This document shows positions 3 to 63,877 of a stretch of 64,000 nucleotides of DNA, piece by piece (within the stretch, counting starts at the first letter, position 1; each line of letters starts with the position of its first letter). A model generated the notes under the pieces. The model did no database searches and was not told the origin of the DNA. It saw only the letters and a list, made by a program, of their open reading frames with translations. Location: contig NZ_LNAL01000008.1 in the NCBI RefSeq assembly GCF_001483135.1, positions 310,001 through 374,000 on the forward strand, read 5' to 3'. A program made the translations under genes and the position numbers. This DNA is from Solirubrum puertoriconensis (lineage in GTDB: Bacteria > Bacteroidota > Bacteroidia > Cytophagales > Hymenobacteraceae).

Positions 3-713
3 GAACTGGCCTGCGGCGATGCGCGCACGTTCCAGGGCAAGGAGCGCCATGTGATGTTCCTCTCGCTAGTGGTGTCGAAGGGGCAGGCCACAGCCGTGGG
101 CCGCGACGATTTTGCCAAGCGCTTCAACGTGGCCGCTTCCCGGGCCCGCGACCGAATGTACCTGGTGCGCAGCCTCGAAGCCGACGAGCTCAGCCCCAAC
201 GACCGCCTGCGCCGCGCCCTGCTGGCGCACTTTGCCACGCCCTACGGCCTCGACGAAGTCCGGGTGAGCAACCTGCGCGAACTGTGCGAGTCGGCGTTTG
301 AGCAGGATGTGTACGACGTGCTAACCGAGCGCGGCTACCGCGTGCAGCCCCAGGTGCGGGTGGGCCAGTACCGCATCGATTTGGTGGTGGAAGGTGCCGG
401 CGACCAGCGTCTCGCCGTAGAGTGCGACGGCGACCGGTACCACGGTCCCGACCGTTGGGCCGACGATCTGCGCCGACAGCGTGTGCTGGAGCGGGCGGGT
501 TGGCAGTTCTGGCGCTGCTTTGCTTCGGCCTGGGTGCGCTGGCACGCCGAAAGCGTGCAGGATTTACTCGACACGCTTGCCCGCGTGGGTATTGAGCCCC
601 TAGGTGCCCACGATGCCCCACCCAGTAGGCACGTGGAAGCGCGTCGCTATGTGGCCTTCCCCGAGGTAGCCGAGCCGGAGGCGGCTGTGCTGCCCACAGA
701 GGTGGAGTTGTAG
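3..713 (+). CDS. C-terminal part of a superfamily 1 helicase fused to a Vsr/DUF559-like nuclease (partial)
   Basis: The reading frame is open from the left edge of the window, so only the last 236 residues are visible. Residues 7-15 (ARTFQGKER) resemble helicase motif V and residues 42-49 (NVAASRAR) motif VI of Upf1/Dna2-like SF1 helicases. After about 45 linker residues comes a nuclease-like fold: a Glu- and Asp-containing stretch (AVECDGDRYHG) followed by R-RQRVLERAGWQFWR, typical of the restriction-endonuclease-like domain found at the C-terminus of large AAA/SF1 proteins (DUF559, REase_MTES families). The protein probably unwinds and cuts DNA and could act in defence or repair, but the upstream part and its neighbours lie outside the window, so the role is inference. 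Confidence 0.72.
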   Translation, partial: ELACGDARTFQGKERHVMFLSLVVSKGQATAVGRDDFAKRFNVAASRARDRMYLVRSLEADELSPNDRLRRALLAHFATPYGLDEVRVSNLRELCESAFEQDVYDVLTERGYRVQPQVRVGQYRIDLVVEGAGDQRLAVECDGDRYHGPDRWADDLRRQRVLERAGWQFWRCFASAWVRWHAESVQDLLDTLARVGIEPLGAHDAPPSRHVEARRYVAFPEVAEPEAAVLPTEVEL

Positions 714-746
714 CGTGTTAGCAAAAGCGTTGAACCCGTTCGGCTT

Positions 747-1355
747 ATGGCTACTTCCGGCGAGACCTTGCTGCTTACCTTGCGACTGGCGGGCTCCGTT
801 CCGGTTCGCGCCGGCCGCGAATTGCAGCAACAGCGTGTCGCGGCGCAGGAGGCAGCCCGCTCAGTTGACTCCGTCGATGAAACTCAGGCTGCCCACCGCC
901 GCGCCGAAAAGCAGTTCTTCGCCGCCTTCGATGCCTTGCTTGATGAAGCTCCTACGGGTCCAGCCTACCTAGGCAAAGAAAAAATTGCCGAGGCGGTAGC
1001 CGGCGAGCTGCTAATGCTGGAGGAGCTAGGTCTGCACGTGCCCTGCTTTGTGCTGCTGCCCACCCACCTGCACGCTGTATTGCACCAGCCTGGGGGCCAT
1101 AGCCTCTCGCTCTACAAAACCGTGGAGCTGCTGCACCAGCGCACCGCCCAGCAGGCCCACCGCATCCTGCGCGGTCAACTGCCCGCACAGGCCGATTTCT
1201 GGCATCCTGGCTTCCATGAGTTGCCGGTGCTCGGTGCTGGCGAGCAGCAGCGCGTGCAGGCCTATTTGCTGGCTCATGCCCAGCGCCTGAAGCTGCCCGC
1301 GCGCTACGGTGAGTGGCCGTACGCTTATGTGGCTCCGGTGGCCCGTGCAACCTAG
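747..1355 (+). CDS. REP-associated tyrosine transposase-like protein (Y1_Tnp, RAYT family)
   Basis: The 202-residue protein has the HUH signature in LLPTHLHAVLHQPGG (His-Leu-His binds the metal), followed about 60 residues later by WHPGFHELPV and QAYLLAHAQRLKL, which align with the W-x-x-x-F-H-x-x and YI-x-x-NP-x-x-x-L parts of RAYT proteins; the Tyr of QAYLLAH would be the catalytic residue. RAYTs are single-copy, domesticated relatives of IS200/IS605 transposases that nick REP palindromes. No IS ends or second copy are seen around it. It starts 33 bases after the helicase-nuclease gene, and its stop codon overlaps a CCTAGG site. Catalytic competence is not certain because the region around the HUH motif is divergent (T instead of N before the first His). 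Confidence 0.65.
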   Translation: MATSGETLLLTLRLAGSVPVRAGRELQQQRVAAQEAARSVDSVDETQAAHRRAEKQFFAAFDALLDEAPTGPAYLGKEKIAEAVAGELLMLEELGLHVPCFVLLPTHLHAVLHQPGGHSLSLYKTVELLHQRTAQQAHRILRGQLPAQADFWHPGFHELPVLGAGEQQRVQAYLLAHAQRLKLPARYGEWPYAYVAPVARAT

Positions 1356-1364
1356 GGCTGGTGG

Positions 1365-1898
1365 CTAACCGCCAGCCTCAGGTGCCAGAGCCGGGTGCAG
1401 AAACAGCACCATGGTTTCCTCGTCGAAGTACTGGCCCTGCCATTTCATGGCGCGCGGCTCGATGCCTGTGCTCACGAAGCCTTCGGAGGCATACAGGGCA
1501 CGGGCTGGAGCGTTGGTAGCCACCAGCGTCAGGAGCACTTGCTCGAGACCCGGCAACTGGCGAACAAACTGCAGGGCAGTGCGCAGCAACGCCCGGCCCA
1601 GGCCGCGGCGGCCCGCTTCGGGGCGCACGTACATGCCCCTGATTAGCCCTTTGTGGCGCATTTTATCGAGGGGCTCGCGCACAAAGCCCAAGGTGCCTAC
1701 CAGTGTATCATCGGCAAAAGCGCCCCAAATTACTTCCTCGGCATTTGGCTGATACGCGGTCCAGCGCAGCGGGCGGCGGGCATCGTCGGCGGGCGTTACC
1801 CGGAAGCATTCGGGCTGGCGCGTAAGGCTTTCGGTGCGCAGGGCTAAGTAAGCCGGCTCATCGGCCGGAAATACAAGTGGGCGAATGGTATCGGCCAT
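1365..1898 (-). CDS. GNAT family N-acetyltransferase
   Basis: A 177-residue protein with the acetyl-CoA binding motif RRGLGRALL in the middle, preceded by the beta-4 strand GMYVRPE, and a C-terminal NAPARALYASEGF segment, all typical of the GNAT fold. The substrate cannot be told from sequence. The start chosen is the ATG that gives MADTIRPLVFP; the longer reading frame would run into the end of the upstream EamA gene. It lies 46 bases downstream of the EamA transporter gene on the same strand, so the two may be co-transcribed, and it converges with the RAYT gene with only 9 bases between the stops. Confidence 0.85.
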   Translation of the reverse strand: MADTIRPLVFPADEPAYLALRTESLTRQPECFRVTPADDARRPLRWTAYQPNAEEVIWGAFADDTLVGTLGFVREPLDKMRHKGLIRGMYVRPEAGRRGLGRALLRTALQFVRQLPGLEQVLLTLVATNAPARALYASEGFVSTGIEPRAMKWQGQYFDEETMVLFLHPALAPEAGG

Positions 1899-1944
1899 AA
1901 AGTGCAGGTGCCGGAGGCGGGCTGGTGGCAGGGCGCCAACCCAG

Positions 1945-11270: not shown

Positions 11271-11296
11271 AAGCATTGCCTAGGTGCCTAATGCTT
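11271..11296 (-). repeat. Short hairpin with CCTAGG in the loop
   Basis: The 7-bp stem AAGCATT / AATGCTT encloses a 12-nt loop that contains CCTAGGTGCC. It lies downstream of the free methionine sulfoxide reductase gene and could be a weak terminator. A second GGCACCTAGG copy follows at 11308-11317. Confidence 0.4.
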
Positions 11297-11329
11297 GTTG
11301 GGGTTCAGGCACCTAGGGTTTGGTAAAAG

Positions 11330-13025: not shown

Positions 13026-13886
13026 GTGACCATTCGCCAGCTTACCGACCACCTTACTCAGGCGCTGCTGCCCCTGTACCCGGCGCCCGAAGCCAGCAAC
13101 ATAGCCGGCATTGTGGTGGAGCACCTGCTGCAGCTTTCGCCGTTGCAGCGCCGCATGCAGAGTACCGATGCCGTACCCGCCGCTGCGCAGGCAAGTGCTC
13201 AAGCGGCCCTAGGTCGGCTGCTGCAGCACGAGCCGGTTCAGTACGTACTGGGCGTGGCACCTTTCCTTGATATGGAACTGCTGGTAACGCCGGCTACGCT
13301 TATCCCCAGGTCCGAAACCGAAGAACTGGTGCAGTTGATCGTGCAGGAGCAAGCCGGCAAGCAAGGTCTGCGGATTTTGGATGTGGGTACAGGTTCCGGC
13401 TGCATCCCGATAGGACTGGCACGGCAGCTGCCCCAAAGCCAAGTATGGGGGCTTGATATTTCAACCGACGCATTGGCTGTGGCGCGCCAAAACGGGCAGC
13501 AACATGCCCCGGAGGTGCAGTGGCTGCAGGCTGACATTCTGCAGACCAATCCGCCGGGTATTGAAGCACAAAGCCTCGCTGTGCTGGTAAGCAACCCGCC
13601 CTACGTGCGCGAATCGGAGCAAGCCCAGATGCGGCCCAACGTGTTGCGGTACGAGCCCCATACGGCCCTGTTCGTGCCCGACAACGACCCGTTGGTGTTT
13701 TACCGCCGCCTTACGCACCTAGGTACGCAGCTGCTGAAGGCTGGCGGAGCTATCTATTTCGAAATCAACGAGGCACTGCCCCAGGAAACCGTAGCCTTGC
13801 TCGAGCAAGCCGGCTATGTGCAAGCCCGCGCCCTGCCCGACCTAACCGGGCGTGCGCGGATGGTGCGGGCCACGTGGCCTGGCTGA
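13026..13886 (+). CDS. prmC: Peptide chain release factor N5-glutamine methyltransferase
   Basis: A 286-residue SAM-dependent enzyme that methylates the Gln of the GGQ motif in release factors 1 and 2. It has the N-terminal helical domain, then LIPRSETEELV, the SAM motif LDVGTGSGCIPIGLA, and the substrate motif VSNPPYVRESE, which is diagnostic of the PrmC/HemK family. Translation is read from a GTG; no earlier ATG fits. It is divergent from ribD. Confidence 0.94.
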   Translation: MTIRQLTDHLTQALLPLYPAPEASNIAGIVVEHLLQLSPLQRRMQSTDAVPAAAQASAQAALGRLLQHEPVQYVLGVAPFLDMELLVTPATLIPRSETEELVQLIVQEQAGKQGLRILDVGTGSGCIPIGLARQLPQSQVWGLDISTDALAVARQNGQQHAPEVQWLQADILQTNPPGIEAQSLAVLVSNPPYVRESEQAQMRPNVLRYEPHTALFVPDNDPLVFYRRLTHLGTQLLKAGGAIYFEINEALPQETVALLEQAGYVQARALPDLTGRARMVRATWPG

Positions 13887-13927
13887 AGCCTTGGCGTCCA
13901 AGCCAATGACGTCTAAGTGAAAAGGCC

Positions 13928-13935
13928 TACCTTTG
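13928..13935 (+). promoter_or_regulatory. Putative -7 box (TACCTTTG) of the nucleotide-sugar operon
   Basis: The same octamer as ahead of the glutamate dehydrogenase gene, 32 bases before the acyltransferase start. It would drive the operon that runs to rfbA. Confidence 0.42.
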
Positions 13936-13966
13936 CCCGCCGAAAACCACTGCTGCTGGCTTGCCA

Positions 13967-14563
13967 ATGACCCAAACTGCCCCCGACTACTTTGCGCACC
14001 CCACCGCCGTACTCGACGAGGGTTGCCGCATTGGCGCCGGTACGCGCATTTGGCACTTTTGCCACGTGAGCAGCGGCGCCGAGCTAGGCGAAGCTTGCTC
14101 CCTGGGGCAAAACGTGTTTGTGGCCGATGGCGTGCGCCTAGGGCGCAACGTGAAGGTGCAAAACAACGTGAGCCTCTACTCCGGCGTGCACTGCCACGAC
14201 GACGTGTTTATTGGTCCGTCGGCGGTGTTTACCAACGTGCGTAACCCGCGCGCCGGCGTGCCCCGCCGTCATCAGTACCAAGCAACCGTGCTGGAGCAAG
14301 GCGTGAGCATCGGGGCCAACAGCACCATCGTGTGCGGCGTGCACCTAGGCGCTTACGCGTTTGTTGGGGCTGGCTCAGTGGTTACGAAAGATGTGTTGCC
14401 TTACGCTTTGGTGTACGGCAACCCCGCCCGCCAACACGGTTGGGTAAGCCAGCATGGCCACCGCCTGCAGTTCGATGCAACCGGTGCAGCAGCTTGCCCC
14501 GAAAGTGGTTGGCAATACCAGCTAACCGGCCAGCGCGTTTCGCGTATGAGCGCCGAGCACTAA
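13967..14563 (+). CDS. Left-handed beta-helix acyltransferase (WbpD/WlbB-like)
   Basis: A 198-residue protein built of hexapeptide repeats (for example GCRIGAGTRIWHFCHVSSGA, then LGQNVFVADGVRLGRNVKVQ), the pattern of trimeric left-handed beta-helix acyltransferases. FTNVRNPRAG and VIGANSTIVCG-type blocks (SIGANSTIVCGVHLG) match WbpD/WlbB, which N-acetylate the 3-amino group of UDP-GlcNAc3NA uronic acid. With tviB next in the operon this role is plausible, but the oxidase and aminotransferase that would make the 3-amino sugar are not in the window. The ATG giving MTQTAPDYF was chosen over a TTG two codons earlier. tviB starts 40 bases after the stop. Confidence 0.85.
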   Translation: MTQTAPDYFAHPTAVLDEGCRIGAGTRIWHFCHVSSGAELGEACSLGQNVFVADGVRLGRNVKVQNNVSLYSGVHCHDDVFIGPSAVFTNVRNPRAGVPRRHQYQATVLEQGVSIGANSTIVCGVHLGAYAFVGAGSVVTKDVLPYALVYGNPARQHGWVSQHGHRLQFDATGAAACPESGWQYQLTGQRVSRMSAEH

Positions 14564-14603
14564 TCCGAATATCCAAGCTCCCGTTTCCAAGTTCCTCCGA
14601 CCC

Positions 14604-15899
14604 GTGTACGAGCAGTTATTGAACAAAGAGGCCAAGCTGGCCGTCATCGGCCTAGGCTATGTAGGCCTGCCTATTGCCTTGGAGTTTGCCCGAAAAATCA
14701 GCGTTATCGGCTTCGATATCAACGCCCAGCGCGTAGAGATGATGCGCAACAACCAGGACCCTAGCGGCGAGCTGGAGCCTGAGGCGTTCGAGGGCTGCGA
14801 TATCACCTTCACCGACTCGCTGGATGTGCTGCGCGAAGCCCGCTTCTTCGTAGTGGCCGTGCCTACGCCTATCGATGAGCACGCCATGCCCGACCTTAAG
14901 CCCCTGATTGGTGCCTCTACCACCGTAGGCAAAGTGCTGAAGAAGGGCGACTATGTGGTGTACGAATCGACGGTTTACCCTGGCTGCACCGAAGAGGATT
15001 GCATTCCCATTCTGGAGCGCGAATCGGGCCTGAAATTTCCCGGCGATTTTAAAGTGGGCTACTCGCCCGAGCGCATCAACCCCGGCGACAAGGAGCACAC
15101 TTTGGCTACCATTGTAAAGGTGGTATCGGGCTGCGACGACGAGTCGCTCGAAGAAATAGCCAAGACGTACGAGCTGGTGGTAACGGCCGGTGTGCACCGC
15201 GCTTCTTCTATTAAAGTAGCCGAAGCCGCCAAAATCATCGAAAATACCCAGCGCGACGTGAACATTGCGTTGATGAACGAGCTGTCGATGATTTTCGACC
15301 GCATGCGCATCAACACCTACGAGGTGCTCGAAGCCGCAGGTACCAAGTGGAACTTCCTGAAGTTCTCGCCTGGCCTGGTGGGCGGCCACTGCATCGGCGT
15401 CGATCCGTACTACCTCACCTACAAAGCCAAAGAGTTGGGTTACGACGCCAAGGTTATCCTATCGGGGCGTACTACCAACGACGGCATGGGAGCTTACATC
15501 GCGCGCAAAACCGTGCAGATGATGATTAAGCAAGGCAAGGACGTGGCTAAGTCGAAGGTGCTGGTGATGGGCGCTACCTTCAAGGAGAACGTGGAGGACA
15601 TCCGCAACTCCAAGGTGGCCGACGTTATCAACGAGCTGCGCAACTTCTCCGTCAACGTCGACATCGTCGATCCGCATGCCGATTCGGAGGAGCTGACCCA
15701 CGAGTACGGTTTTAGCCTGATTCCTGAAAATCAGATCGGTAACGATTACGATGCTGTAGTGGTAGCCGTAAGCCACAAGCCCTATACCCAACTCGACGAA
15801 GAGTACTTTAAGTCGATTACGACGCCCAAAGCCGTATTGGTCGATATCAAAGGCTTGTTCCGCGAGAAGATCAACGAATTGCAGTACTGGAGCCTGTAA
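14604..15899 (+). CDS. tviB: UDP-N-acetylglucosamine 6-dehydrogenase (TviB/WbpA type nucleotide sugar dehydrogenase)
   Basis: The 431-residue NAD enzyme oxidises C6 of a UDP-N-acetylhexosamine to the uronic acid. It has the N-terminal Rossmann motif VIGLGYVGLPIALEF, YESTVYPGCTEEDCIP and YSPERINPGDKEH, the catalytic region GLVGGHCIGVDPYYL (Cys), and the C-terminal VLVMGATFKENVEDIRNSK. The text is close to TviB of the Vi antigen pathway along its whole length. Translation starts at GTG. With tviC downstream it should give UDP-GalNAcA or UDP-GlcNAcA for a capsule or O-antigen. Confidence 0.92.
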   Translation: MYEQLLNKEAKLAVIGLGYVGLPIALEFARKISVIGFDINAQRVEMMRNNQDPSGELEPEAFEGCDITFTDSLDVLREARFFVVAVPTPIDEHAMPDLKPLIGASTTVGKVLKKGDYVVYESTVYPGCTEEDCIPILERESGLKFPGDFKVGYSPERINPGDKEHTLATIVKVVSGCDDESLEEIAKTYELVVTAGVHRASSIKVAEAAKIIENTQRDVNIALMNELSMIFDRMRINTYEVLEAAGTKWNFLKFSPGLVGGHCIGVDPYYLTYKAKELGYDAKVILSGRTTNDGMGAYIARKTVQMMIKQGKDVAKSKVLVMGATFKENVEDIRNSKVADVINELRNFSVNVDIVDPHADSEELTHEYGFSLIPENQIGNDYDAVVVAVSHKPYTQLDEEYFKSITTPKAVLVDIKGLFREKINELQYWSL

Positions 15900-15905
15900 C
15901 AACCG

Positions 15906-15939
15906 GGGCCTACAAGCTCAGAAAGTTGAGCGTAGGCCC
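15906..15939 (+). terminator. Hairpin after tviB
   Basis: The outer stem GGGCCTAC / GTAGGCCC and an inner stem GCTCA / TGAGC form a two-part hairpin, followed by TGTGTTTT. It may attenuate rather than end transcription, as galE follows in the same direction. Confidence 0.68.
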
Positions 15940-15966
15940 TGTGTTTTAATCTTCTAAGACCTAGCT

Positions 15967-16995
15967 ATGCAAAAGATTCTTGTTACGGGTGGTGCCGGCT
16001 ACATCGGCTCGCACACGGTAGTTGCGCTGAAAGAAGCCGGCTTTGAACCCATCATCGTTGATAACTTCTCCAACTCGAAGGAAACCGTGTTGGAAGGTTT
16101 ACGGGCAATTTTGGGTGCCGACGTTAAGTGCTATCATACCGATTGCACCGATAAAGCAGCCTTCCGCCAGGTCTTCGAAGCCGAAGCAAACCTAGGCGGG
16201 GTTATCCACTTCGCAGCTTACAAAGCAGTAGGCGAATCGGTTGAAAAGCCACTGGCCTACTTTCAGAACAACGTAGGCTCGTTGCTGGTGCTGCTGGAGC
16301 TAATGCAGGAGTTCAAGGTGAAAAACCTGGTTTTCTCCTCGTCGTGCACCGTGTACGGCGTGCCCGACCAGCTTCCCGTAACAGAACAAACCCCCACCAA
16401 GCCAGCCAGCTCGCCTTATGGCCGCACCAAGCAGATGTGCGAAGACATTCTGCGCGATGTTGCTCAGGCTCCCGGTAACGAACTGCGCTCGGTGTTGCTT
16501 CGCTATTTCAATCCCATCGGGGCTCATCCGTCGGGCCGGATTGGCGAACTGCCCCTAGGTGTACCTAATAACCTAGTGCCGTTTGTAACCCAAACAGCTG
16601 CCGGCTGGCGCGAGCAACTCACCGTGAATGGCGTGGATTACGACACGCCTGACGGCTCGTGCGTGCGCGACTACATTTACGTGGGCGACCTAGCCCGGGC
16701 CCACGTTGTTGCGGTGCAGCGTCAGCTTAGCAACAAGGCCGAAACCGTGGAGGTGTTCAACGTGGGTACGGGCCACGGCAACTCGGTACTGGAGGTGGTA
16801 ACGGCCTTCGAGAAGGTAACTGGCCAGCCCGTGAAATACCGTACCGGCCCGCGTCGGGCGGGCGATGTACCCGCTATTTATGCCGATGCTACCAAAGCAG
16901 GCGACGTATTGGGCTTCCGCACCGAAATTGGCTTAGAAGAAGCTTTGGCTACTGCTTGGCGTTGGCAGCAAACCCTAGGTGCCAAGCCCGAATAA
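15967..16995 (+). CDS. galE: UDP-glucose 4-epimerase
   Basis: A 342-residue extended SDR enzyme that interconverts UDP-glucose and UDP-galactose. The N-terminal NAD motif TGGAGYIGSH, the catalytic SSSCTVYG and YGRTK, and the C-terminal substrate loop (RYFNPIGAHPSG, then NLVPFV) are all those of GalE. It begins 67 bases after tviB and is followed closely by rfbB, whose start codon lies 27 bases downstream. Confidence 0.95.
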   Translation: MQKILVTGGAGYIGSHTVVALKEAGFEPIIVDNFSNSKETVLEGLRAILGADVKCYHTDCTDKAAFRQVFEAEANLGGVIHFAAYKAVGESVEKPLAYFQNNVGSLLVLLELMQEFKVKNLVFSSSCTVYGVPDQLPVTEQTPTKPASSPYGRTKQMCEDILRDVAQAPGNELRSVLLRYFNPIGAHPSGRIGELPLGVPNNLVPFVTQTAAGWREQLTVNGVDYDTPDGSCVRDYIYVGDLARAHVVAVQRQLSNKAETVEVFNVGTGHGNSVLEVVTAFEKVTGQPVKYRTGPRRAGDVPAIYADATKAGDVLGFRTEIGLEEALATAWRWQQTLGAKPE

Positions 16996-17021
16996 CTCTC
17001 AACAAGACCTCTGCTCCAATC

Positions 17022-18077
17022 ATGAAAATTCTTATTACCGGCGGCGCTGGTTTCATTGGCTCGCACGTAGTACGACTGTTCGTAACGAAGTACCCCGATT
17101 ACCAAATCCTGAACCTGGATGCGCTAACCTACGCTGGTAACCTAGAGAACCTGCGCGACATCGAGGACCGGCCGAACTACCGCTTTATCAAAGGCGACCT
17201 GACTGACCAAGCTTTTGTTGATCAGCTGTTTGCTACCGAGCAGCCCGATTCGGTAATTCACCTAGCCGCTGAGTCGCACGTCGACCGCAGCATTACCGAC
17301 CCCCTCGCGTTCGTGAAAACAAACGTGTTGGGTACGGTGCACCTGCTTAATGCTGCCCGCCACCTGTGGCAGCCCAATGGCTACGAGGGCCACGTGTTTT
17401 ACCACGTAAGCACCGACGAAGTGTACGGCTCGCTCGAGATGGACGGCGGCATGTTCACAGAAGATACGCCTTACGACCCCCGCTCGCCTTATTCGGCCTC
17501 AAAGGCTTCGTCGGACCACTTTGTGCGGGCCTGGTACCACACCTACCACATGCCGGTGAAAATCAGCAACTGCTCGAACAACTACGGCCCCAACCACTTC
17601 CCCGAGAAGCTGATTCCGCTGGCACTGCACCGCATCCAGAAGGGCGAGGCCATTCCGGTGTACGGCCGCGGCGAAAACGTGCGCGACTGGCTGTTCGTGA
17701 AAGACCACGCTACTGCTATCGACGCAGTGTTCCACAAAGGCGAAGTGGGCGACACATACAACATCGGCGGCGTAAACGAGTGGAAGAACATCGACCTTAT
17801 TCATCTGCTGTGCGACGTGATGGACGAGAAGCTAGGCAAAGAGCAGGGCACCTCGCGCCAGCTGATTAAGTTCGTAACCGACCGCGCCGGGCACGACCTG
17901 CGCTACGCCATCGACTCCAGCAAAATCATGAACGAGCTGGGCTGGAAGCCCTCGGTTACCTTCGAGCAGGGCCTGCGCCAGACCGTGGACTGGTACTTCG
18001 AAAACCAAGAGTGGTTGGAGCGCGTGACCAGCGGCGCCTACCAAGACTACTACCGCCAGCAGTACGCCGCTCGCTAA
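17022..18077 (+). CDS. rfbB: dTDP-glucose 4,6-dehydratase
   Basis: The 351-residue enzyme makes dTDP-4-keto-6-deoxyglucose, the precursor of rhamnose and other deoxysugars. Motifs are TGGAGFIGSHVV at the N-terminus, AAESHVDRSI, STDEVYGSLE with the Asp-Glu pair of the dehydratase, PYSASKASSDHFVRA with the catalytic Tyr and Lys, and NCSNNYGPNHFPEKLIPL. rfbA, which makes its substrate, is two genes downstream; rmlC and rmlD are not in the window, so the final deoxysugar is unknown. The start is the ATG giving MKILITGGAG, 26 bases after galE. Confidence 0.95.
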   Translation: MKILITGGAGFIGSHVVRLFVTKYPDYQILNLDALTYAGNLENLRDIEDRPNYRFIKGDLTDQAFVDQLFATEQPDSVIHLAAESHVDRSITDPLAFVKTNVLGTVHLLNAARHLWQPNGYEGHVFYHVSTDEVYGSLEMDGGMFTEDTPYDPRSPYSASKASSDHFVRAWYHTYHMPVKISNCSNNYGPNHFPEKLIPLALHRIQKGEAIPVYGRGENVRDWLFVKDHATAIDAVFHKGEVGDTYNIGGVNEWKNIDLIHLLCDVMDEKLGKEQGTSRQLIKFVTDRAGHDLRYAIDSSKIMNELGWKPSVTFEQGLRQTVDWYFENQEWLERVTSGAYQDYYRQQYAAR

Positions 18078-18087
18078 CCGGGCACCG

Positions 18088-18177
18088 CTGAATTATGAAT
18101 TCTGGGTTATGAATTGCTCTGAAACGAGATGCGCTGATGAGCAAGCCATAATTTGGAATTCATAATTCATAATTCAG
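18088..18177. repeat. AT-rich palindromic element between rfbB and tviC
   Basis: A 14-bp perfect inverted repeat (CTGAATTATGAATT at 18088-18101 and its complement at 18164-18177) with further copies of the unit ATAATTC / GAATTAT inside. The block is far richer in A and T than the genes on both sides. It fills nearly the entire 110-base gap and looks like a small mobile palindrome rather than a promoter. Confidence 0.65.
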
Positions 18178-18187
18178 AATTATAGAA

Positions 18188-19195
18188 ATGTACGATCAGC
18201 CTTTTCACGAGCAGCCGCTCGAGAACCTAACCTTCCTTGTTACGGGCGGGGCTGGGTTTATTGGCTCCAACATAGTTGAGTATCTGTTGAAGTACGGAGT
18301 AAAGAAGGTGCGCACCTTCGATAACTACTCCAATGGCTTCCGCAAGAACCTACGCTTGTTTGAAGGCCACCCGGCCTTGGAAATTCTCGACGGCGACATC
18401 CGCGACCCGCAAGCGTGCCGCGCTGCCTGCGAAGGCGTTGATGTGGTGTTGCACCAGGCGGCCCTAGGTTCGGTACCGCGTTCTATCAACGACCCCATCA
18501 CCTCTAACGACGTGAACGTGGGCGGTTTTGTGAACATGCTGGTGGCAGCTAAGGACGCCGGCGTGAAGCGCTTCGTGTACGCGGCTTCGTCGAGCACCTA
18601 CGGCGATTCGCCGCACCTGCCCAAAATCGAGGACCGCATCGGCAAGCCCCTGTCGCCATACGCCGTAACGAAGTACGCCAATGAGTTGTATGCCGATGTG
18701 TTTGGCAAAACCTACGGCATGGAAATCATCGGCTTGCGCTACTTCAACATCTTCGGTCCTCGCCAAGACCCGAATGGTGCGTACGCTGCCGTGATTCCGT
18801 TGTTTATTGATGCCGTGCTGAAAGGGAAAGCACCGCGCATCAACGGCGACGGCGGCCAAACCCGCGACTTCACGTTTGTAGAGAACTGCGTGCAGGCCAA
18901 CATTCGGGCTGCGTTGGTGCAGAACCCCGAGGCGGTAAACCAAGTGTACAACATTGCTGTGGCCGACCGCACCTCCCTTAACGACCTCTTCAACATTCTG
19001 AAAGAAGAAGCTGGGGTTGACATCACTCCCGAGTACGGCCCCAACCGTGCCGGCGATATTCGCGACTCACTGGCCGACATCAGCAAAGCGCAACGTTTGC
19101 TCGGCTACAATCCGCAGGTGCGGATTCGCGAAGGCCTTAAGCGCACGCTCGACTGGTTCCGCACCAACGAAGCATTCATTCAAGAACGTAATTAG
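18188..19195 (+). CDS. tviC: UDP-N-acetylglucosamine 4-epimerase (TviC/WbpP type)
   Basis: A 335-residue extended SDR enzyme with VTGGAGFIGSNIVEYLL, HQAALGSVPRSI, AASSSTYGDSP, PYAVTKYANELYADVF (Tyr and Lys of the active site) and RYFNIFGPRQDPNGAYAAVIP. The HQAALGSVPRS block and the NGAYAAV loop are those of WbpP/TviC epimerases, which act on UDP-GlcNAc or its uronic acid to give the galacto form. It would work with TviB. It follows the AT-rich palindrome. Confidence 0.92.
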   Translation: MYDQPFHEQPLENLTFLVTGGAGFIGSNIVEYLLKYGVKKVRTFDNYSNGFRKNLRLFEGHPALEILDGDIRDPQACRAACEGVDVVLHQAALGSVPRSINDPITSNDVNVGGFVNMLVAAKDAGVKRFVYAASSSTYGDSPHLPKIEDRIGKPLSPYAVTKYANELYADVFGKTYGMEIIGLRYFNIFGPRQDPNGAYAAVIPLFIDAVLKGKAPRINGDGGQTRDFTFVENCVQANIRAALVQNPEAVNQVYNIAVADRTSLNDLFNILKEEAGVDITPEYGPNRAGDIRDSLADISKAQRLLGYNPQVRIREGLKRTLDWFRTNEAFIQERN

Positions 19196-19259
19196 CCATC
19201 TGCGGCTACGCAGCCTGCTGCACTAGTAGGCAACAGCCACTCCTAGGTTCCTCCACTCC

Positions 19260-20132
19260 ATGAAAGGCATTATCCTCGCCGGCGGCTCCGGCACCCGTTT
19301 GCATCCGCTAACGCTAGCCGTGAGCAAGCAGCTCATGCCGGTTTACGACAAGCCGATGATCTACTACCCGTTGTCGGTGCTGATGATGGCTGGTATTCGG
19401 GATATTCTGATCATTACCACGCCGCACGACCAAGCGCAGTTCCAGCGCCTGCTCGGCGACGGCCAGAACCTGGGCTGTAACTTCCAGTACGCCGTGCAGG
19501 AGGTGCCCAACGGCTTGGCGCAGGCCTTCGTGATTGGCGAAGAATTCATTGGCGACGACAAGGTAGCGCTGGTACTCGGCGACAACATCTTCTACGGCGC
19601 GGGCATGGAAGAGCTGTTGCAGAGCAACAACAACCCCGACGGCGGCGTGGTGTACGCCTACCACGTGCACGACCCCGAGCGCTACGGCGTGGTGGAGTTC
19701 GACGACAATTTGCAGGCGCTGAGCATCGAGGAGAAGCCCAAGCAGCCCAAGAGCAACTACGCCGTACCCGGCTTGTACTTCTACGACAACGAGGTGGTAA
19801 GCATTGCCAAGGCGCTGAAGCCCAGCGCCCGCGGCGAGTACGAGATTACCGACGTAAACCAGGAGTACCTGCGCCGCGGCAAGCTGAAGGTGGGCATCCT
19901 GGGCCGGGGCACGGCCTGGCTGGATACCGGCACCTTCGAGTCGCTGATGCAAGCCAGCGAATTTGTGCGCGTAATTGAGCAGCGCCAAGGCCTGAAAGTT
20001 GGTTCGATTGAGGAAGTGGCGTACCGCCAAGGCTTCATCGATGCCGCACAGCTGCGCAAGATTGCTGAGCCGCTGCGCAAGAGCGGCTACGGCGACTACT
20101 TGATGCACCTGCCGGAGCAGTTGGTGTTTTAA
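19260..20132 (+). CDS. rfbA: Glucose-1-phosphate thymidylyltransferase
   Basis: A 290-residue nucleotidyltransferase that joins dTTP and glucose-1-phosphate to give dTDP-glucose for RfbB. It starts [18 protein letters not shown], continues with [29 protein letters not shown] and [20 protein letters not shown], and ends with the RfbA-type C-terminal helices ([15 protein letters not shown]). It is the last gene of the nucleotide-sugar operon and has a shared hairpin terminator with chrA. Confidence 0.96.
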
Positions 20133-20133
20133 G

Positions 20134-20266
20134 TAATGATCAATTAATAATGAACAATGCCCGGTGCCGCCTAGGTGCCGGGCATTTGTTTTGGGTCGGC
20201 ACCTAGGCGCCGTCGAGTCTTGGCGCCTCACGAGCCATCCTACTGTTAATGGCTCATTGATCATTA
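20134..20266. repeat. AT-rich inverted repeat between rfbA and chrA
   Basis: TAATGATCAAT at 20134-20144 pairs with ATTGATCATTA at 20256-20266. The ends are AT-rich (units such as CATTATTCATTG and AATAATGAACAATG) while the centre is GC-rich and holds a terminator plus two CCTAGG sites. Like the element at 18088 it flanks a nucleotide-sugar gene pair and resembles a small non-autonomous repeat. Confidence 0.5.
20156..20186. terminator. Bidirectional terminator between rfbA and chrA
   Basis: A 9-bp stem (AATGCCCGG / CCGGGCATT) followed by TGTTTT. The 13-nt loop contains CCTAGGTG. Confidence 0.75.
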
Positions 20267-20284
20267 TTCATTGCCCCAAACCAC

Positions 20285-21505
20285 TTAGGGCAGTAGCGCA
20301 CCGGCCAGCAAGGAACCAAGCACCAGCATATAAGAAGGAATACGGTCCCAGAGCAGGACCAGAAACGTAGCGCCTACCAATACCGGGTTCAAAGGCAGAT
20401 CGACGCCGTAGCGGCCCGGTAGGTGCCAGATGATGCCATCGGGGAGGGGGTGGTAAAGCAGAAACGTAGCTGCTACTACTAAGCCCGCGCTAACGGCGTT
20501 GATGCCTTCGAGCGAAGCCTTGACTACGCGGTACTGTTTGAGTTGGTCCCAGAAGCGAATAAGAAAGAAGATGAGCAGCGTACCCGGCATGAAGATGCCA
20601 GCCGCCGCTACAAACGCCCCGAGCAGCTGGCCGCCAATGCCGTACTCGCGCATGGCTAATGCTCCGATGTAGGAGCTAAACGCGAAGTTAGGCCCGGGCA
20701 AAGCCTGCGTCAGGCCGTAGCCTGACAGAAACTCCGTGCTGCTGAGGTAAGCCTTGAACTCCACAAACTCGGCATAGAGCAGCGGCGCCAGCACTTGCCC
20801 ACCGCCAAACACCAGCGAACCGTTGCGGTAAAAGTTCTCGAACAGACGTACGGGCAGCAAACGGGTATAGTGGCCCAGCAAAGCAGCTACCAAAGCTACT
20901 CCCAGCCACAGCACAAAATTCGACCACTCCACCCTAAGCGGCTCTTTCTCCTCAACTTTTGGGAGCTTGCTGTAGCGGAAGGTAGTAATCAGCCCGCCAC
21001 CTAGGAGCAGCAGCGGCAACACCCAAGGCAACTGGAAGAAATATGCAATCAGAGCTGAGGCAACCAGCAGCGCCACCGACGTTTTGGTGTGGATAACCTT
21101 CTCGGCAATCTTGTAAGCTGAATAGGCCACAAACCCCACAGCCACGGGCTGCACAAATCGTACAAGCCGGGCTACTAGGTCTTTGTCGAGGTAGTTAATG
21201 GAAAGGCCGGCAATCGTCATGAGGCAAACTGCCGGCAGCATCCAGACCAATAGCGTGAGGTAAGCCAGGTTGGGGCCACCCAAGCGAAAGCCAATGGCCG
21301 TGATGGTTTGGGTAGAGGTGGGGCCGGGCAGTACTTGGCACAAAGCCATTAGCTCGAGTAACTCGGCCGAGGTAAGGTAGCGCCGCTTGTCAACCAAGAG
21401 GCGCAGCATCATGGCCGTATGGGCTTGCGGCCCGCCAAACGCGGTTAGCGCCAGTACTGCCACGTCCTTCAGAAAGATGATGCCGCGTACACGTTTGGCG
21501 TGCAT
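20285..21505 (-). CDS. chrA: Chromate transporter family protein (two-domain ChrA)
   Basis: A 406-residue membrane protein with two homologous halves. The first has TAFGGPQAHTAMMLR and MALCQVLPGPTSTQTITAIG, the second NGSLVFGGGQVLAPLLYAEFV and YGLTQALPGPNFAFSSYIGAL, the FGGP and LPGP signatures of ChrA repeats. Long ChrA proteins export chromate; some members only have a suspected role in sulfate or other anion transport. An in-frame GTG at 21592 would add a proline-rich 29-residue tail; the ATG giving MHAKRVRGIIF is preferred. It is a single-gene unit. Confidence 0.88.
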   Translation of the reverse strand: MHAKRVRGIIFLKDVAVLALTAFGGPQAHTAMMLRLLVDKRRYLTSAELLELMALCQVLPGPTSTQTITAIGFRLGGPNLAYLTLLVWMLPAVCLMTIAGLSINYLDKDLVARLVRFVQPVAVGFVAYSAYKIAEKVIHTKTSVALLVASALIAYFFQLPWVLPLLLLGGGLITTFRYSKLPKVEEKEPLRVEWSNFVLWLGVALVAALLGHYTRLLPVRLFENFYRNGSLVFGGGQVLAPLLYAEFVEFKAYLSSTEFLSGYGLTQALPGPNFAFSSYIGALAMREYGIGGQLLGAFVAAAGIFMPGTLLIFFLIRFWDQLKQYRVVKASLEGINAVSAGLVVAATFLLYHPLPDGIIWHLPGRYGVDLPLNPVLVGATFLVLLWDRIPSYMLVLGSLLAGALLP

Positions 21506-21704
21506 GCGCCTGGGTGGGGGCGCCAGCTTTACAACGGCGGGTTCCGGGAGCTGCACGGGCAAAGGAGGTGAGTAGTAGCAGTAAAGAAGCACAATCTGCC
21601 CCGAAAGGCAAGCAGCTGCGCTTAAGCATTGCGACGATTAAATAAAGCAACTGGGCCAGTAACCATGCACCGAGGCAGCGGGCAAGTTGGCCTAGGTGCC
21701 AAAA

Positions 21705-21740
21705 CCAAGGGCTACCACTCGGCAGAGTGGTAGCCCTTGG
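21705..21740 (-). terminator. Terminator of the 2-oxoglutarate oxygenase gene
   Basis: A perfect 16-bp stem (21705-21720 and 21725-21740) with a 4-nt GGCA loop, 22 bases after the stop codon. A CCTAGGTGCC copy lies just beside it at 21691-21700. Confidence 0.9.
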
Positions 21741-21762
21741 GGTAAACCTGCTGTGCAGGCAA

Positions 21763-25445: not shown

Positions 25446-25487
25446 AGGCGAGTACACCAGCCGCCTAGGTGGTTACTACCGCCGGGC

Positions 25488-25531
25488 AAACACAAGGGCC
25501 CCGCACTATTTAGTGCGGGGCCCTTGTGTTT
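25488..25531. terminator. Bidirectional terminator between the OmpA gene and floA
   Basis: A perfect 21-bp stem (25488-25508 and 25511-25531) with a 2-nt centre, bounded by A and T runs, between convergent genes. It is the strongest hairpin in the window. Confidence 0.93.
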
Positions 25532-25557
25532 AGCAAACTGCCGAAGCGGCCAGCCGG

Positions 25558-26562: not shown

Positions 26563-26611
26563 GACCAGAAATATTGCTAGCCGTAGTTAGCTGATTTCCC
26601 CGAGAAACCCG

Positions 26612-27079: not shown

Positions 27080-27179
27080 GACAGTGGGGTGAGATGCCTA
27101 CAGAAAGATACGCACAAAGCACCTAGGCGGGGTTAGTTAGCTATTCTTCCGTAGCTTTTCGGTGCTCACTCGTGTTTTT

Positions 27180-27731: not shown

Positions 27732-27795
27732 ATCTTGCGTTCAATCAAGGTTTTGAGGCAGGAGGGAAGGCCACCTTTGTAAAAACGCAAAAGCT

Positions 27796-28362: not shown

Positions 28363-28415
28363 CTGCGGGCACCAAGTTGCCAACCCCGCACCTAGGGCGC
28401 TGCGTAAGCGGCAAC

Positions 28416-28661: not shown

Positions 28662-28691
28662 GCTGCCATTCGGCACCTAGGGAAATACAAA

Positions 28692-39752: not shown

Positions 39753-39760
39753 ACTCTGAG

Positions 39761-58453: not shown

Positions 58454-59851
58454 ATGACCACCAGCGCCACCCAGACCGCCGCATCCCGCAACCAAACAGA
58501 TAAAGAGCAGCTTACCGTAATGGGCGCCGGCCTGGTAGGCTCGCTACTGAGCTTATACTTAGCACGGCATGGGCACCGAATACAGGTGTTCGAGCGCCGC
58601 CCCGATCCTCGCCAAGCCGGCGCTGCCGCTGGCCGCTCCATCAACTTGGCCTTGTCGGATAGGGGATGGCGGGCACTGGAGGGAATTGGTATTGCCGAAG
58701 CCGTGCGCGAAGTAGCCATTCCGATGTATGGCCGCGTGATGCACGATGCGCAAGGCAACCTCAGCTACCAGCCTTACGGGCAGCCGGGCCAGGGTATTTA
58801 CTCCGTATCGCGGGGTGGGCTGAACCGCCGCCTGCTCGATTTGGCCGAGGCCGAGCCCAACATTCAGCTCAACTTTGGGCAGCAGTGCCTCGAAGTTGAT
58901 TTGCGCGAGCAGCAACTGCACCTGCGCGACAGCGCCACGGGCGAGGAAAAGCACCTAGGGTATCAGCGGCTCTTTGGCACCGATGGTGCTTTTTCGGCCG
59001 TGCGCAGCTCCATGCAGCGCACCGATCGGTTCGACTATTCGCAATCGTACCTTGAATACGGCTACAAGGAGCTAACCATTGCCTCGGCTGCCGATGGCAC
59101 CTGGCAGCTCGAAAAGCACGCCTTGCACATTTGGCCGCGCGGGCGCTACATGATGATTGCGCTGCCCAACCTCGACGGCACCTTTACCTGCACGCTGTTC
59201 TTCCCCTTCGAGGGCGATGAATCGTTTGCGGCGTTGCGTACGCCCGGGCAGGTCCAGGCGTTCTTCGAGCGGGTATTCCCCGATGCCGTGCCGCTGATGC
59301 CCGAACTCATCGACGATTTCTTCGGCAACCCTACCTCGTCGCTCGTCACGGTAAAGTGCTTCCCGTGGGTGCACGAGGACGATGTGGTGCTGCTCGGCGA
59401 CGCGGCCCACGCTATTGTGCCCTTCTACGGCCAAGGCATGAACGCCGGCTTTGAGGATTGCACCGTGCTCGATGAGCTGCTGAATGCGCACGCCGGCGAC
59501 TGGGGCAAGGTGTTCCAGGAATTCCAGCGCCTACGCAAGCCCAACGCCGACGCCGTGGCCGATTTAGCGGTGTATAACTTCGTGGAAATGCGCGACAAGG
59601 TAGCCGACCCGCGCTTTTTGCTGCAGAAGAAAATCGAAAGCAAAATTGCCGCGCAGTACCCCGATCAGTGGCTGCCGCTATACTCGCAGGTTACCTTTTC
59701 GCACCGGCCTTATGCCGAAGCCTGGGCCAACGGCCAGCGGCAAGATGCCATCATGAGCCGCCTAATGGCCCGCATCCAAAGCGAGGAAGACTACGACCGC
59801 CCCGAGGTGCAGCAATTGGTGCAGCAGGAAATGGCGCAGGTACCTGCCTAG
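58454..59851 (+). CDS. kmo: Kynurenine 3-monooxygenase
   Basis: The 465-residue FAD enzyme hydroxylates kynurenine to 3-hydroxykynurenine, the substrate of KynU. The N-terminal FAD fold has VMGAGLVGSLLSLYLARHGH and FERRPDPR; AAGRSINLALSDRGWRAL is diagnostic of KMO; the second FAD site is VVLLGDAAHAIVPFYGQGMN. The start MTTSATQTAAS was chosen; an earlier in-frame codon would add 20 residues across a Cys/Pro-rich stretch. It lies about 7.8 kb from kynU, on the far side of alkB and the receptor pair. Confidence 0.96.
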   Translation: MTTSATQTAASRNQTDKEQLTVMGAGLVGSLLSLYLARHGHRIQVFERRPDPRQAGAAAGRSINLALSDRGWRALEGIGIAEAVREVAIPMYGRVMHDAQGNLSYQPYGQPGQGIYSVSRGGLNRRLLDLAEAEPNIQLNFGQQCLEVDLREQQLHLRDSATGEEKHLGYQRLFGTDGAFSAVRSSMQRTDRFDYSQSYLEYGYKELTIASAADGTWQLEKHALHIWPRGRYMMIALPNLDGTFTCTLFFPFEGDESFAALRTPGQVQAFFERVFPDAVPLMPELIDDFFGNPTSSLVTVKCFPWVHEDDVVLLGDAAHAIVPFYGQGMNAGFEDCTVLDELLNAHAGDWGKVFQEFQRLRKPNADAVADLAVYNFVEMRDKVADPRFLLQKKIESKIAAQYPDQWLPLYSQVTFSHRPYAEAWANGQRQDAIMSRLMARIQSEEDYDRPEVQQLVQQEMAQVPA

Positions 59852-59863
59852 GTGCTCCGGTGC

Positions 59864-60490
59864 TTAGCTGAGCCAGCCAGCACCTAGGGCAACCGCTGCC
59901 CCGAGCCCCAGGCCGGCCAGCACTTGCGCGGGCGTGTGCGCCCGCAAAGCCAGTCGAGCCCAGCTTACGGCAGCTGCCACCGCGCCCACAGCCAGCAGCC
60001 ACCTAGGGCCAGCGGGGCCAACCGGATAGGAACCCAACAGCAGGAACACCAGCAGCCCCAACGCGCCACCCATTCCTATGCCGTGCGCTGAAACCTTCCA
60101 CCAAAAGGTAATAAGCAGCGTGCACACCACGGCCAGGGTAATGCTACCGAGCATCAGCAACAGCAGCGGTGCGCGGTAAGCTGCCGTACTGCTCAATAGC
60201 GCGGTGGCTGCCCCGAAACCTAGGGCCGTGAGCAGAAGTGGCAAAGGTCGTTGGCGGCGTTCGTACAGCTCAACGGAGCTAATGCGCCCGGCGCGGTACA
60301 GCAGCCAAGTAGCCAAGCCGGGCAGCCAAAACGTAAGCAGCCATACCCACAGCGTTACTTGCCACCGGGCGCCGGTTGCTAGGGACAGCAATGTTGTTGG
60401 CATGCCGTAAGCCAACATTACTACTAGGTAAGTTGGCACCAGTAGCGGATGAAAGACGGCTGACAGAAAGGTGGCTGCAGAACGCTTCAC
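59864..60490 (-). CDS. PAP2-like membrane protein
   Basis: A 208-residue protein with five to six hydrophobic helices. The C-terminal part contains WWKVSAHGIGMGGALGLL and WARLALRAHTPAQVLAGLGL, which resemble the PSGH and SRxxxxxHxxxD motifs of PAP2 phosphatases, but Pro-Ser of the second motif and Asp of the third are changed and motif 1 (KxxxxxxRP) is only loosely seen as YERRQRPLP. It may be a divergent or inactive lipid phosphatase. Translation would start at GTG. It follows rpoN on the same strand with a terminator between. Confidence 0.68.
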   Translation of the reverse strand: MKRSAATFLSAVFHPLLVPTYLVVMLAYGMPTTLLSLATGARWQVTLWVWLLTFWLPGLATWLLYRAGRISSVELYERRQRPLPLLLTALGFGAATALLSSTAAYRAPLLLLMLGSITLAVVCTLLITFWWKVSAHGIGMGGALGLLVFLLLGSYPVGPAGPRWLLAVGAVAAAVSWARLALRAHTPAQVLAGLGLGAAVALGAGWLS

Positions 60491-62162: not shown

Positions 62163-62283
62163 AACTCGGTACGCGTGCTTCCGCTGCCGTAGGAGGGTGC
62201 GGCTTCTGCCAAAGATAGCCTTTTGTGTACTTGAGTAGCACGCCAAAGGTTGGTGCGAAATGCGGCTTACGAACCGTCGAAAT

Positions 62284-62398
62284 GTAGCGCCGACGCTGCA
62301 GTCCACGTCCGCTAAGGGTAACCTTAGCCATCTGCGCCCAGGAAGCACGAGTAGGAGGAAAGGCTATCCGGAGACGCGGCCTGCAGCGTCGGCGCTAC
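62284..62398. repeat. REP/MITE-like element with an 18-bp perfect terminal inverted repeat
   Basis: GTAGCGCCGACGCTGCAG at 62284-62301 is repeated as its exact complement at 62381-62398, with 79 bases between. The similarity of the arms continues loosely inwards, and the centre has its own hairpin (GCTAAGG / CCTTAGC, 62311-62328, loop GTAA). Only one copy is seen here. The form suits a RAYT-mobilised REP pair or a miniature transposon, or a large transcribed hairpin. Confidence 0.7.
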
Positions 62399-62450
62399 CG
62401 CTCGCGACAACAATTGTGCAGGCAAACGCGGACTGAAGTGCGCGCTCCTG

Positions 62451-62458
62451 TATTTTTG
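62451..62458 (+). promoter_or_regulatory. Putative -7 box (TATTTTTG) of asnS
   Basis: Matches TAnnTTTG, 24 bases before the asnS start. It lies downstream of the inverted-repeat element, so the element need not be transcribed with asnS. Confidence 0.42.
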
Positions 62459-62482
62459 CCGGCTCATCTCATTGCCAACACA

Positions 62483-63877
62483 ATGTCCGTCAGAAGATCA
62501 AGCGTAGAGGCACTGCTGGCTAGCCAAGAGCTAGACCGCGAAGTGCTCGTGAAAGGCTGGGTACGCACCCGCCGCGGCAACAAATACGTGCAGTTTATTG
62601 CCGTGAACGACGGCTCCACGATTAATAACCTGCAGGTTGTAGCCGACGCTGAGAAGTTTCCGGAGGAAACGCTGAAGGACGTGGCCACCGGCGCCTGCGT
62701 AGCCGTGCGCGGCACCTTGGTAGCCTCGCAGGGCAAGGGCCAGTCGGTTGAAATTCAGGCTTCGGAAATTGAAGTGCTGGGCAAAGCCGACCCCGAAACC
62801 TACCCGCTCCAGAAGAAAGGCCACTCGCTCGAGTTCCTGCGCGAAATTGCGCACCTGCGCCCCCGCACCAACACCTTCGGGGCGGTGCTGCGCCTGCGCC
62901 ACGCGCTGGCTTTTGCGGTGCACCAGTACTTTAACGACCGTGGCTTTTTCTACGTGCACACGCCCATCATCACCGGCTCCGATGCCGAGGGTGCCGGCCA
63001 GATGTTCCGCGTAACCACGCTCCCCGACCAAAATCCGCCGCTCAACGAGCAGGGCCAGGTAGATTATAAGGAAGACTTCTTCGGCAAGGCCACCAACCTC
63101 ACGGTTTCGGGCCAGCTCGAGGGCGAGGTGGCCGCCATGGCCCTGGGTAAGGTGTACACCTTCGGCCCCACGTTCCGCGCCGAGAACAGCAACACGGCCC
63201 GCCACCTAGCCGAGTTCTGGATGATTGAGCCGGAAATGGCCTTCTACGAGCTCGAAGACAACATGGGCCTGGCCGAGGACTTCCTGAAGTACCTCGTGCG
63301 CTACGCCCTCGAGAAGTGCCCCGCCGACCTGCAGTTCCTCAACGACCAGTACGACAAGGAGCTCCTAGGTCGGTTGCAGTTCATCATCGACAACGACTTC
63401 CAGCGCCTGACCTACACCGAGGCCGTGGAAATCCTGAAGTCGGCCAAGCAAAAGTTCGAATTCCCGGTGGATTGGGGCACCGACCTGCAGTCGGAACACG
63501 AGCGCTACCTGGTGGAGAAGCACTTCGAGAAGCCCGTAATCCTGACGAACTACCCGAAGGACATCAAGGCCTTCTACATGAAGCTCGACGAGGACGGCCG
63601 CACCGTGCGGGCCATGGATGTGCTGTTTCCCGGCATCGGCGAAATCATCGGTGGCTCGCAGCGCGAGGAAAACCTGGAGAAGCTGCAGCAGCGAATGCAG
63701 GAAATGCACGTGCCCGAAGAGGAGCTGTGGTGGTACCTCGATCTGCGCCGCTTCGGCTCAGCCCCGCACTCGGGCTTCGGCCTGGGCTTCGAGCGCCTGG
63801 TGCTGTTCGTAACGGGTATGGCCAACATCCGCGACGTGATTCCCTTCCCGCGCTTCCCGAAGAACGCGGAGTTTTAA
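62483..63877 (+). CDS. asnS: Asparaginyl-tRNA synthetase
   Basis: The 464-residue class IIb enzyme charges tRNA-Asn. The N-terminal OB fold ([20 protein letters not shown]) binds the anticodon; the catalytic core has [20 protein letters not shown], motif 2 in [20 protein letters not shown], and motif 3 in [16 protein letters not shown]. The insert before the core and the NSNT loop separate it from AspRS. The ATG giving [11 protein letters not shown] was chosen. It is divergent from rpoN and has its own terminator. Confidence 0.97.

Follow-up and report, generated by a model that had tools for sequence, protein, structure and literature searches.

The window analysed here is a 64-kb stretch of the genome of Solirubrum puertoriconensis (contig NZ_LNAL01000008.1, positions 310,001 to 374,000; the whole genome, 4.80 Mb, is referred to as G000), throughout which the hexamer CCTAGG recurs. 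The host is a Hymenobacter-type member of the Bacteroidota, and SusC/RagA and PorE-type OmpA proteins among the ten window proteins scanned give the region a Bacteroidota-like look; the closest named relatives by rpoN belong to Hymenobacter. A hand count in an earlier sequence-only reading had put the hexamer at about 93 copies, with about 20 expected; the exact count is 93, with 20.5 expected from base composition, and all 12 example positions listed in that reading carry CCTAGG. Markov models of orders 1 and 2 lower the expectation to 14.8 and 13.1. The order-4 model proposed as a check predicts 74.9 copies in the window (observed/expected, 1.24), a figure of no diagnostic value, since CCTAGG itself accounts for 93 of the 115 CCTAG words present; the excess is evident at orders 0 to 2. 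GCCGGC is equally frequent in the window (98 copies) but is predicted by the order-2 model (95.2). Genome-wide, the iteration turned out larger than had been noted, with 6,212 copies of CCTAGG versus 136 of GGATCC, the reversed control of the same composition, which is therefore far from being just as frequent. Density is 1.29/kb across G000 and 1.36 to 1.56/kb in sampled regions. The order-0 to order-2 models, together with the poor sister genomes and the plasmid contigs described below, argue against a codon or composition artefact. The cores of the window are distributed as follows (listed positions are CCTAGG starts).

599-63369, no strand: 93 CCTAGG cores, the first at 599-604 and the last at 63364-63369; 39 read ACCTAGG on the plus strand only, 38 on the minus strand only, 3 have A on both flanks, and 13 on neither.
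968-60575, plus strand: 39 plus-oriented sites, at 968, 1351, 2222, 2417, 3037, 6389, 6882, 9303, 10442, 11312, 11942, 14344, 16191, 20202, 21000, 23374, 23987, 24671, 27122, 28391, 28676, 32266, 33357, 34397, 38361, 40782, 44459, 46296, 48917, 49331, 52029, 52775, 53177, 56173, 58954, 59883, 60002, 60219, and 60570.
599-63369, minus strand: 38 minus-oriented sites, at 599, 2964, 9593, 11279, 12746, 13208, 16554, 16974, 18463, 19242, 20170, 21691, 23576, 25464, 25682, 26931, 27194, 31929, 33333, 36762, 37028, 40134, 40889, 41260, 46849, 47398, 47459, 49491, 51430, 51832, 52139, 53624, 55085, 56527, 58100, 59847, 61579, and 63364.
13718-30924, no strand: 3 sites with A on both flanks (ACCTAGGT), at 13718, 30598, and 30919.
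2042-54376, no strand: 13 sites with A on neither flank, at 2042, 3604, 5714, 9389, 14137, 14651, 32715, 35764, 38669, 43835, 45137, 48131, and 54371.

A directional word in one clade

Three of the eight genomes of the genus are rich in CCTAGG, namely, G000 (6,212 copies), G005 (H. oligotrophus sh-6; 5,678), and G006 (Hymenobacter sp. YIM 151858-1; 5,325), whereas the other five are poor (123, 163, 201, 220, and 249). The remaining 50 of the 58 genomes in the wider count hold 5 to 807 copies each. Because RpoN identity to the window is 95 to 96% in the other two rich genomes versus 87 to 92% in the poor ones, the rich genomes probably form one clade in which the word was probably gained. Flanks and location were assessed in regional samples of G000, G005, and G006 (164, 153, and 153 kb, respectively); regional comparisons overall covered 21 to 180 kb per genome, i.e., parts of genomes. 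Open reading frames (ORFs) were called with a simple script of our own, which misses short genes and makes coding and noncoding counts approximate.

At 612 of the 694 sites in the three rich regions, A occupies exactly one flank (320 with A before only, 292 with T after only). The palindromic octamer with A on both flanks, ACCTAGGT, makes up 22 sites (154.7 expected under independence), which is not the pattern of a HIP1-type (highly iterated palindrome 1) octamer, and 60 sites have A on neither flank (192.7 expected). Independence is rejected (p 1.7e-90), and six control palindromes lack any such one-flank effect (p 0.14 to 1). The unit in the rich clade is thus directional: it is ACCTAGGS (S, G or C), or about GGCACCTAGGSC outside ORFs. 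With position 0 set at the first C of CCTAGG, the 164 oriented sites outside ORFs lengthen the consensus to GGC-ACCTAGG-(G/C)C (C 66% at -2, G 50% at -3, G 45% at -4, and C 46% at +7). The palindrome described in the sequence-only reading stands as far as the CCTAGG core is concerned; in the rich clade, however, it is not free-standing but forms the core of a directional heptamer or octamer. ACCTAGGS occurs 4,831, 4,682, and 4,558 times in the three rich genomes, with the strands balanced (2,359 forward and 2,472 reverse in G000), and the ACCTAGGG octamer reaches 37.7 times its order-2 expectation. Orientations are mixed in 20-kb bins of one region, with no consistent bias (the replication origin was not located).

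Density is 3.7, 3.7, and 4.5 times higher outside than inside called ORFs in the three rich genomes, versus ratios of 0.21 to 0.82 for ten control palindromes, and the even spread over genes and gaps claimed at first sight was therefore not borne out. Convergent gaps hold 8.3 CCTAGG per kb, same-direction gaps 3.7, and divergent gaps 2.2. Inside called ORFs the reading frame is mostly xxC CTA GGx, a context that takes up 33 to 39% of all CTA codons in rich genomes versus 2% in the poor genome G007. In G000 the sites are spaced more regularly than chance predicts (coefficient of variation, 0.84 versus a null of 1.03; 0 of 500 null runs as low); the coefficient is 0.84 in G005 and 0.92 in G006, the null having been run in G000 only. 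Eight inverted pairs less than 60 bp apart with predicted hairpins lie in the 164-kb G000 region, and those of the window are listed here, with folding energies predicted with flanks.

11279-11317, no strand: inverted motif pair between called ORFs, predicted to form a hairpin of -26.7 kcal/mol.
20170-20207, no strand: inverted motif pair in a convergent gap, predicted to form a hairpin of -33.7 kcal/mol.
33333-33362, no strand: inverted motif pair at a convergent gene end (gap 33352-33429), predicted to form a hairpin of -17.6 kcal/mol.
59847-59888, no strand: inverted motif pair at a gene end, predicted to form a hairpin of -27.3 kcal/mol.

Origin of the sites, plasmid contigs, and the words of relatives

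The word arose by substitution, not by insertion. Among 119 sites alignable with the poor genome G007, 1 is conserved, 43 are one base off, 62 are two to four bases off, and 13 are gapped; five control words gave 16/150, 15/158, 5/81, 7/93, and 2/54 gapped sites. CCTAGG is common to all three rich genomes at 93 of the 243 positions where all align and at least one carries it. Its conservation between rich species is 61 to 75%, compared with 18 to 25% for CCTAGC, 6 to 24% for CCTAAG, and 51 to 54% for all hexamers. At differing sites the partner is mostly CCCAGG, followed by CCGAGG, CCTAAG, and others. Since these partners are diverse and often fall at a degenerate codon position, no single mutation explains CCTAGG.

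Plasmid contigs of the same strains are nearly empty of the word. Three small G005 contigs (84.9 kb in total, the 42-kb one being a named plasmid) carry 3 CCTAGG and 0 ACCTAGGS versus 101.3 expected. Two G006 contigs (238 kb counted: the 158.2-kb named plasmid in whole and 80 of the 100.9 kb of contig C3) carry 21 CCTAGG and 5 ACCTAGGS versus 285.7 expected at the chromosomal rate, so that the two strains together give 5 ACCTAGGS versus about 387 expected. Contigs C3 and C4 of G005 and C3 of G006 were taken as plasmids as small separate contigs with no named record; a TraG-type ATPase is encoded on G005 C3, and Rep3 initiators on G005 C2, G006 C2, G006 C3, and G000 C4. In G000, C4 plus 20 kb of C5 hold 3 CCTAGG and 2 ACCTAGGS versus 38.3 expected; C5 was kept out of the main plasmid count because it was judged plasmid-like only after its low density had been seen. 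Contig C2 of G000 (80 of 89 kb) is at chromosomal density (1.34 CCTAGG/kb). A plasmid gene common to the rich genomes was considered as the driver and rejected: the sampled G005 and G006 contigs have several segments in common, whereas what C2 and C4 of G000 share with them is limited to short stretches close to the replication gene. In the rich genomes, nine loci for methyltransferases or Vsr, two of them on plasmid-like contigs, hold 4 CCTAGG in 32.6 kb. Within the sampled G000 region, DNA that aligns to only one of the other rich genomes is also poorer (6 sites in 9.2 kb; 0.66/kb), unlike DNA that aligns to neither (see below).

Other CTAG-core words occur in some relatives. Counts in 204 Hymenobacteraceae genomes exceed 1,800 ACCTAGGS in 8 of them (G000, G005, G006, G070, G076, G125, G140, and G158), and 19 have at least 2,000 GCTAGC, up to 7,271, as read from the count table. 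Of these 204, ten family genomes beyond the genus with raised counts and two poor ones were sampled for dialects; in addition, 80 named 10- to 22-kb loci were screened, 2 of which have a clear word. The sampled word is ACCTAGGG/C together with CCCTAGGG in G125 and, more weakly, in G140; CCCTAGGG in G109; ASCTAGST in G070, G076, and G158; and GGCTAGCC in G032, G084, and G157 (Hymenobacter sp. CA2-7). G080 (H. fodinae) has a directional CTAGGCCAST, assembled from overlapping 9-mers. The GGCTAGCC dialect rests mainly on genome-wide GCTAGC counts, since in 21- to 40-kb samples it stands at 12 to 21 times the composition expectation and falls outside the top words of the order-2 model. Two further loci of the screen, from Hymenobacter sp. 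YC55 and H. mucosus, show raised CTAG (0.75) without a clear word, and CTAG is avoided in the poor genomes G007, G059, and G121 (observed/expected, 0.12 to 0.18). We infer that the words of the relatives are dialects of one system.

Several further words were recorded along the way. G048, from another family of the order, has 807 CCTAGG versus 62 GGATCC in 4.0 Mb, possibly an independent moderate enrichment. CTCGAG is higher in rich regions (206 copies, 201 coding and 5 noncoding, versus 17 in the sampled regions of five poor genomes), a difference that may reflect avoidance in the poor genomes, and CGATCG counts 203 to 323 in rich genomes versus 49 to 67 in poor genomes of the genus. Words without CTAG were found in contig C2 of G109 (AGAGATGCT, 63-fold) and in C8 of G059 (ACTGACAAC, 65-fold; TCACCATCT, 40-fold), perhaps as dispersed repeats. 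ACCTCTAC reaches 13 to 22 times its order-2 expectation in several samples of poor genus genomes; it was set aside as a comparable word because 41 of 53 copies share one sense frame, probably a codon effect.

Weighing the explanations

The reading that we favour, at a probability of roughly 45%, is that ACCTAGGS (about GGCACCTAGGSC) is a mark of self DNA linked to uptake or exchange, like a DNA uptake sequence (DUS). Directionality, origin by substitution, scarcity on plasmids, and variants around a fixed core place it first and a HIP1-like product second. The density, the balance between strands, the excess outside ORFs, the even spacing, the conservation between rich species, the nearly empty methyltransferase and Vsr loci, and the other CTAG-core words of relatives also count in its favour. 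As proposed, DNA that carries the word would be preferred by a receptor, or at a processing step, during uptake or homologous exchange, and copies gaining the word by mutation would be passed on more often by recombination. Molecular drive and selection would thereby raise the word to about one copy per kb in those parts of the chromosome that are exchanged, as far as coding constraint permits. Both the driver, be it uptake or exchange, and the existence of the receptor are inferred. More tentatively, the family may harbour an uptake-sequence system outside Neisseriaceae and Pasteurellaceae, in which a Hymenobacter CTAG-core mark would have at least five species-specific dialects that limit exchange and would have been gained within one genus recently enough to allow gene-by-gene comparison of sister species with and without it.

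Several observations weigh against an uptake mark. Three of the dialect groups (CCCTAGGG, ASCTAGST, and GGCTAGCC) are palindromic, whereas the passages cited describe known uptake sequences as lacking palindromic symmetry (PMC1939737). No orientation is clearly favoured within reading frames, unlike what is reported for known uptake sequences in the part of the source cited (PMC2346458), and site pairs at close range show no clear excess of inverted ones (21 of 34 within 60 bp, in the three genomes). Sequence beside the sites diverges no more than random coding DNA does, in contrast to what is reported for Neisseria. The conservation of CCTAGG, though high, is not exceptional: in four comparisons it ranks 101/1630, 502/1601, 170/1468, and 53/1429 among hexamers, and control palindromes such as TGCGCA and GTGCAC match it. 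It may simply be that the plasmids arrived recently, and DNA of the sampled G000 region aligned to neither of the other rich genomes is not poorer in the word (29 sites in 21.9 kb coding, 1.32 versus 1.29/kb), although this DNA may be rearranged rather than foreign. ComEC is encoded in every one of the 21 genomes searched; since these include poor as well as rich ones, it neither supports nor excludes uptake. Among the top-ranked openly licensed papers of our literature search, there was no report of competence in Hymenobacter and no description of the CCTAGG word in Hymenobacter or of an uptake sequence in Bacteroidota; in three papers that contain the string CCTAGG, it occurs only in primers or reference lists.

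A HIP1-like origin, in which a CTAG-core methyltransferase or modification would bias mismatch repair so that site-creating mutations are kept, with the word as a by-product of methyl-directed repair or selected for it, is the main rival, though less likely than the uptake reading. It would account for the palindromic CTAG core and for the octamers that are palindromes in the three dialects named above; the density of about one per kb and the even spacing fit a saturating repair model, the density lying within the HIP1-type range (about 0.5 to 2.5 copies/kb) and the sites having formed in situ by mutation, as those of HIP1 do. One-sided words are compatible with it, since one cyanobacterium, Oscillatoria PCC 10802, is enriched in ACCGGC and GCCGGT together with GCCGGC. 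A trans-acting factor of this kind should, however, also mark long-resident plasmids, and the motif is directional in the rich clade. The suggestion that the word is a methyltransferase target found no counterpart in an enzyme common to G000, G005, and G006 within PF00145, PF01555, PF02086, PF02384, and PF07669, the five Pfam families searched; other families lay outside the search. G000 has a single PF01555 match, on a 12.5-kb contig, and G005 has one clear PF02384 match and one PF07669 match below the cut-off. Such below-cut-off PF07669 matches lie in ORFs of about 1,200 amino acids in G005 and G006, with similar ones in the poor genomes G001, G004, and G007 and none in G000. Protein comparison of the methyltransferase matches (PF07669 excepted) and the Vsr matches yielded no orthologue common to the rich genomes. 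Alternative HIPs of cyanobacteria are accompanied by a fitting methyltransferase (PMC4390886, in the portion cited), which speaks for a link of this type; yet the missing common enzyme is not decisive, because HIP1-rich genomes without a CGATCG enzyme exist, according to the same portion of that source.

The remaining explanations fit the data less well. Mutation bias alone, e.g., CCCAGG to CCTAGG hypermutation devoid of function, draws on CCCAGG/CCTGGG being the commonest partner (50 of 118 differences between G000 and G006), but this degenerate codon position also holds CCGAGG and CCAAGG, at least two changes separate 62 of 106 ungapped sites from G007, the A flank is required, and plasmid contigs are nearly unaffected; we regard it as very improbable. 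Biased repair at CTAG, offered by the sequence-only reading as a possible source, is not supported as a single mutational route given the diverse partner hexamers (CCCAGG, CCGAGG, CCAAGG, or words several changes away where a poor relative aligns) and the nearly empty plasmid contigs of the same strains. The Vsr-type nuclease that it proposed to look for (PF03852) is present in 2 of 9 genomes, one rich (G006) and one poor (G001), and so does not track the word; a Vsr-driven route was therefore rejected. The binding site of a lineage-specific chromosome-associated protein, such as a nucleoid organiser or global regulator, with the sites maintained because chromosome structure is under selection, would agree with a word that is nearly absent from plasmid contigs, evenly spaced, conserved, and enriched outside ORFs, most of all in convergent gaps. 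Thousands of sites within codons and a word that changes between relatives would nevertheless be hard to reconcile with a housekeeping protein, and strand bias is missing, so this role is improbable, if less so than mutation bias. Least probable of all is a Chi-like recombination hotspot or FtsK-guiding sequence. The word is short, directional, iterated, and chromosomal, as such a signal would be, but the hallmark of motifs of the Chi and KOPS (FtsK-orienting polar sequence) type is strand bias relative to replication, and the equal forward and reverse counts across the genome and their mixture in 20-kb bins speak against a motif of that type.

Likeness to known systems

The repetition of one short word thousands of times over a genome is an old open question, posed by DUS, by the uptake signal sequences (USS) of Pasteurellaceae, and by HIP1. 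Since rich and poor species belong to a single genus here, gain, spread, and loss can be traced on orthologous genes, and the alternative CTAG-core words of some relatives open another way of searching for the protein that determines the word. Were uptake the right reading, Bacteroidota would have species-specific barriers to DNA exchange, which to our knowledge are documented from two proteobacterial families only.

The word shares with HIP1 and the alternative HIPs, as far as the cited portions of the sources describe them, an octamer-scale length, a 4-base palindromic core (GATC in HIP1, CTAG here), species variants, an in situ mutational origin, and, apparently, a scarcity that marks foreign genes (PMC4390886; PMC3025956). 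The resemblance to HIP1 drawn in the sequence-only reading holds for density, substitution origin, an apparent rarity in mobile DNA, and the existence of variants that keep a 4-base core. It breaks down at the directional unit of the rich clade and at the methyltransferase, none being common to the rich genomes in the five families; the host, moreover, is not cyanobacterial. Extended forms of HIP1 stay palindromic in all genomes but one, and HIP-rich genomes generally have a fitting methyltransferase (PMC4390886, in the portion cited). Unlike DUS of Neisseriaceae and USS of Pasteurellaceae, the Hymenobacter word belongs to a different phylum, has a CTAG core, and has palindromic counterparts in some relatives; its inverted pairs are not clearly enriched, its flanks are not more divergent, and uptake, competence, and a receptor are hypothetical in its case. 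Like them, it is a short directional word near one per kb that was formed by substitution, lies at permissive sites, seems scarce or atypical in mobile DNA, and varies around a fixed core in relatives (PMC3630211; PMC2397512; PMC1626085; PMC7371117, in the portions cited). This profile resembles that of DNA uptake sequences with dialects somewhat more than that of cyanobacterial HIP1.

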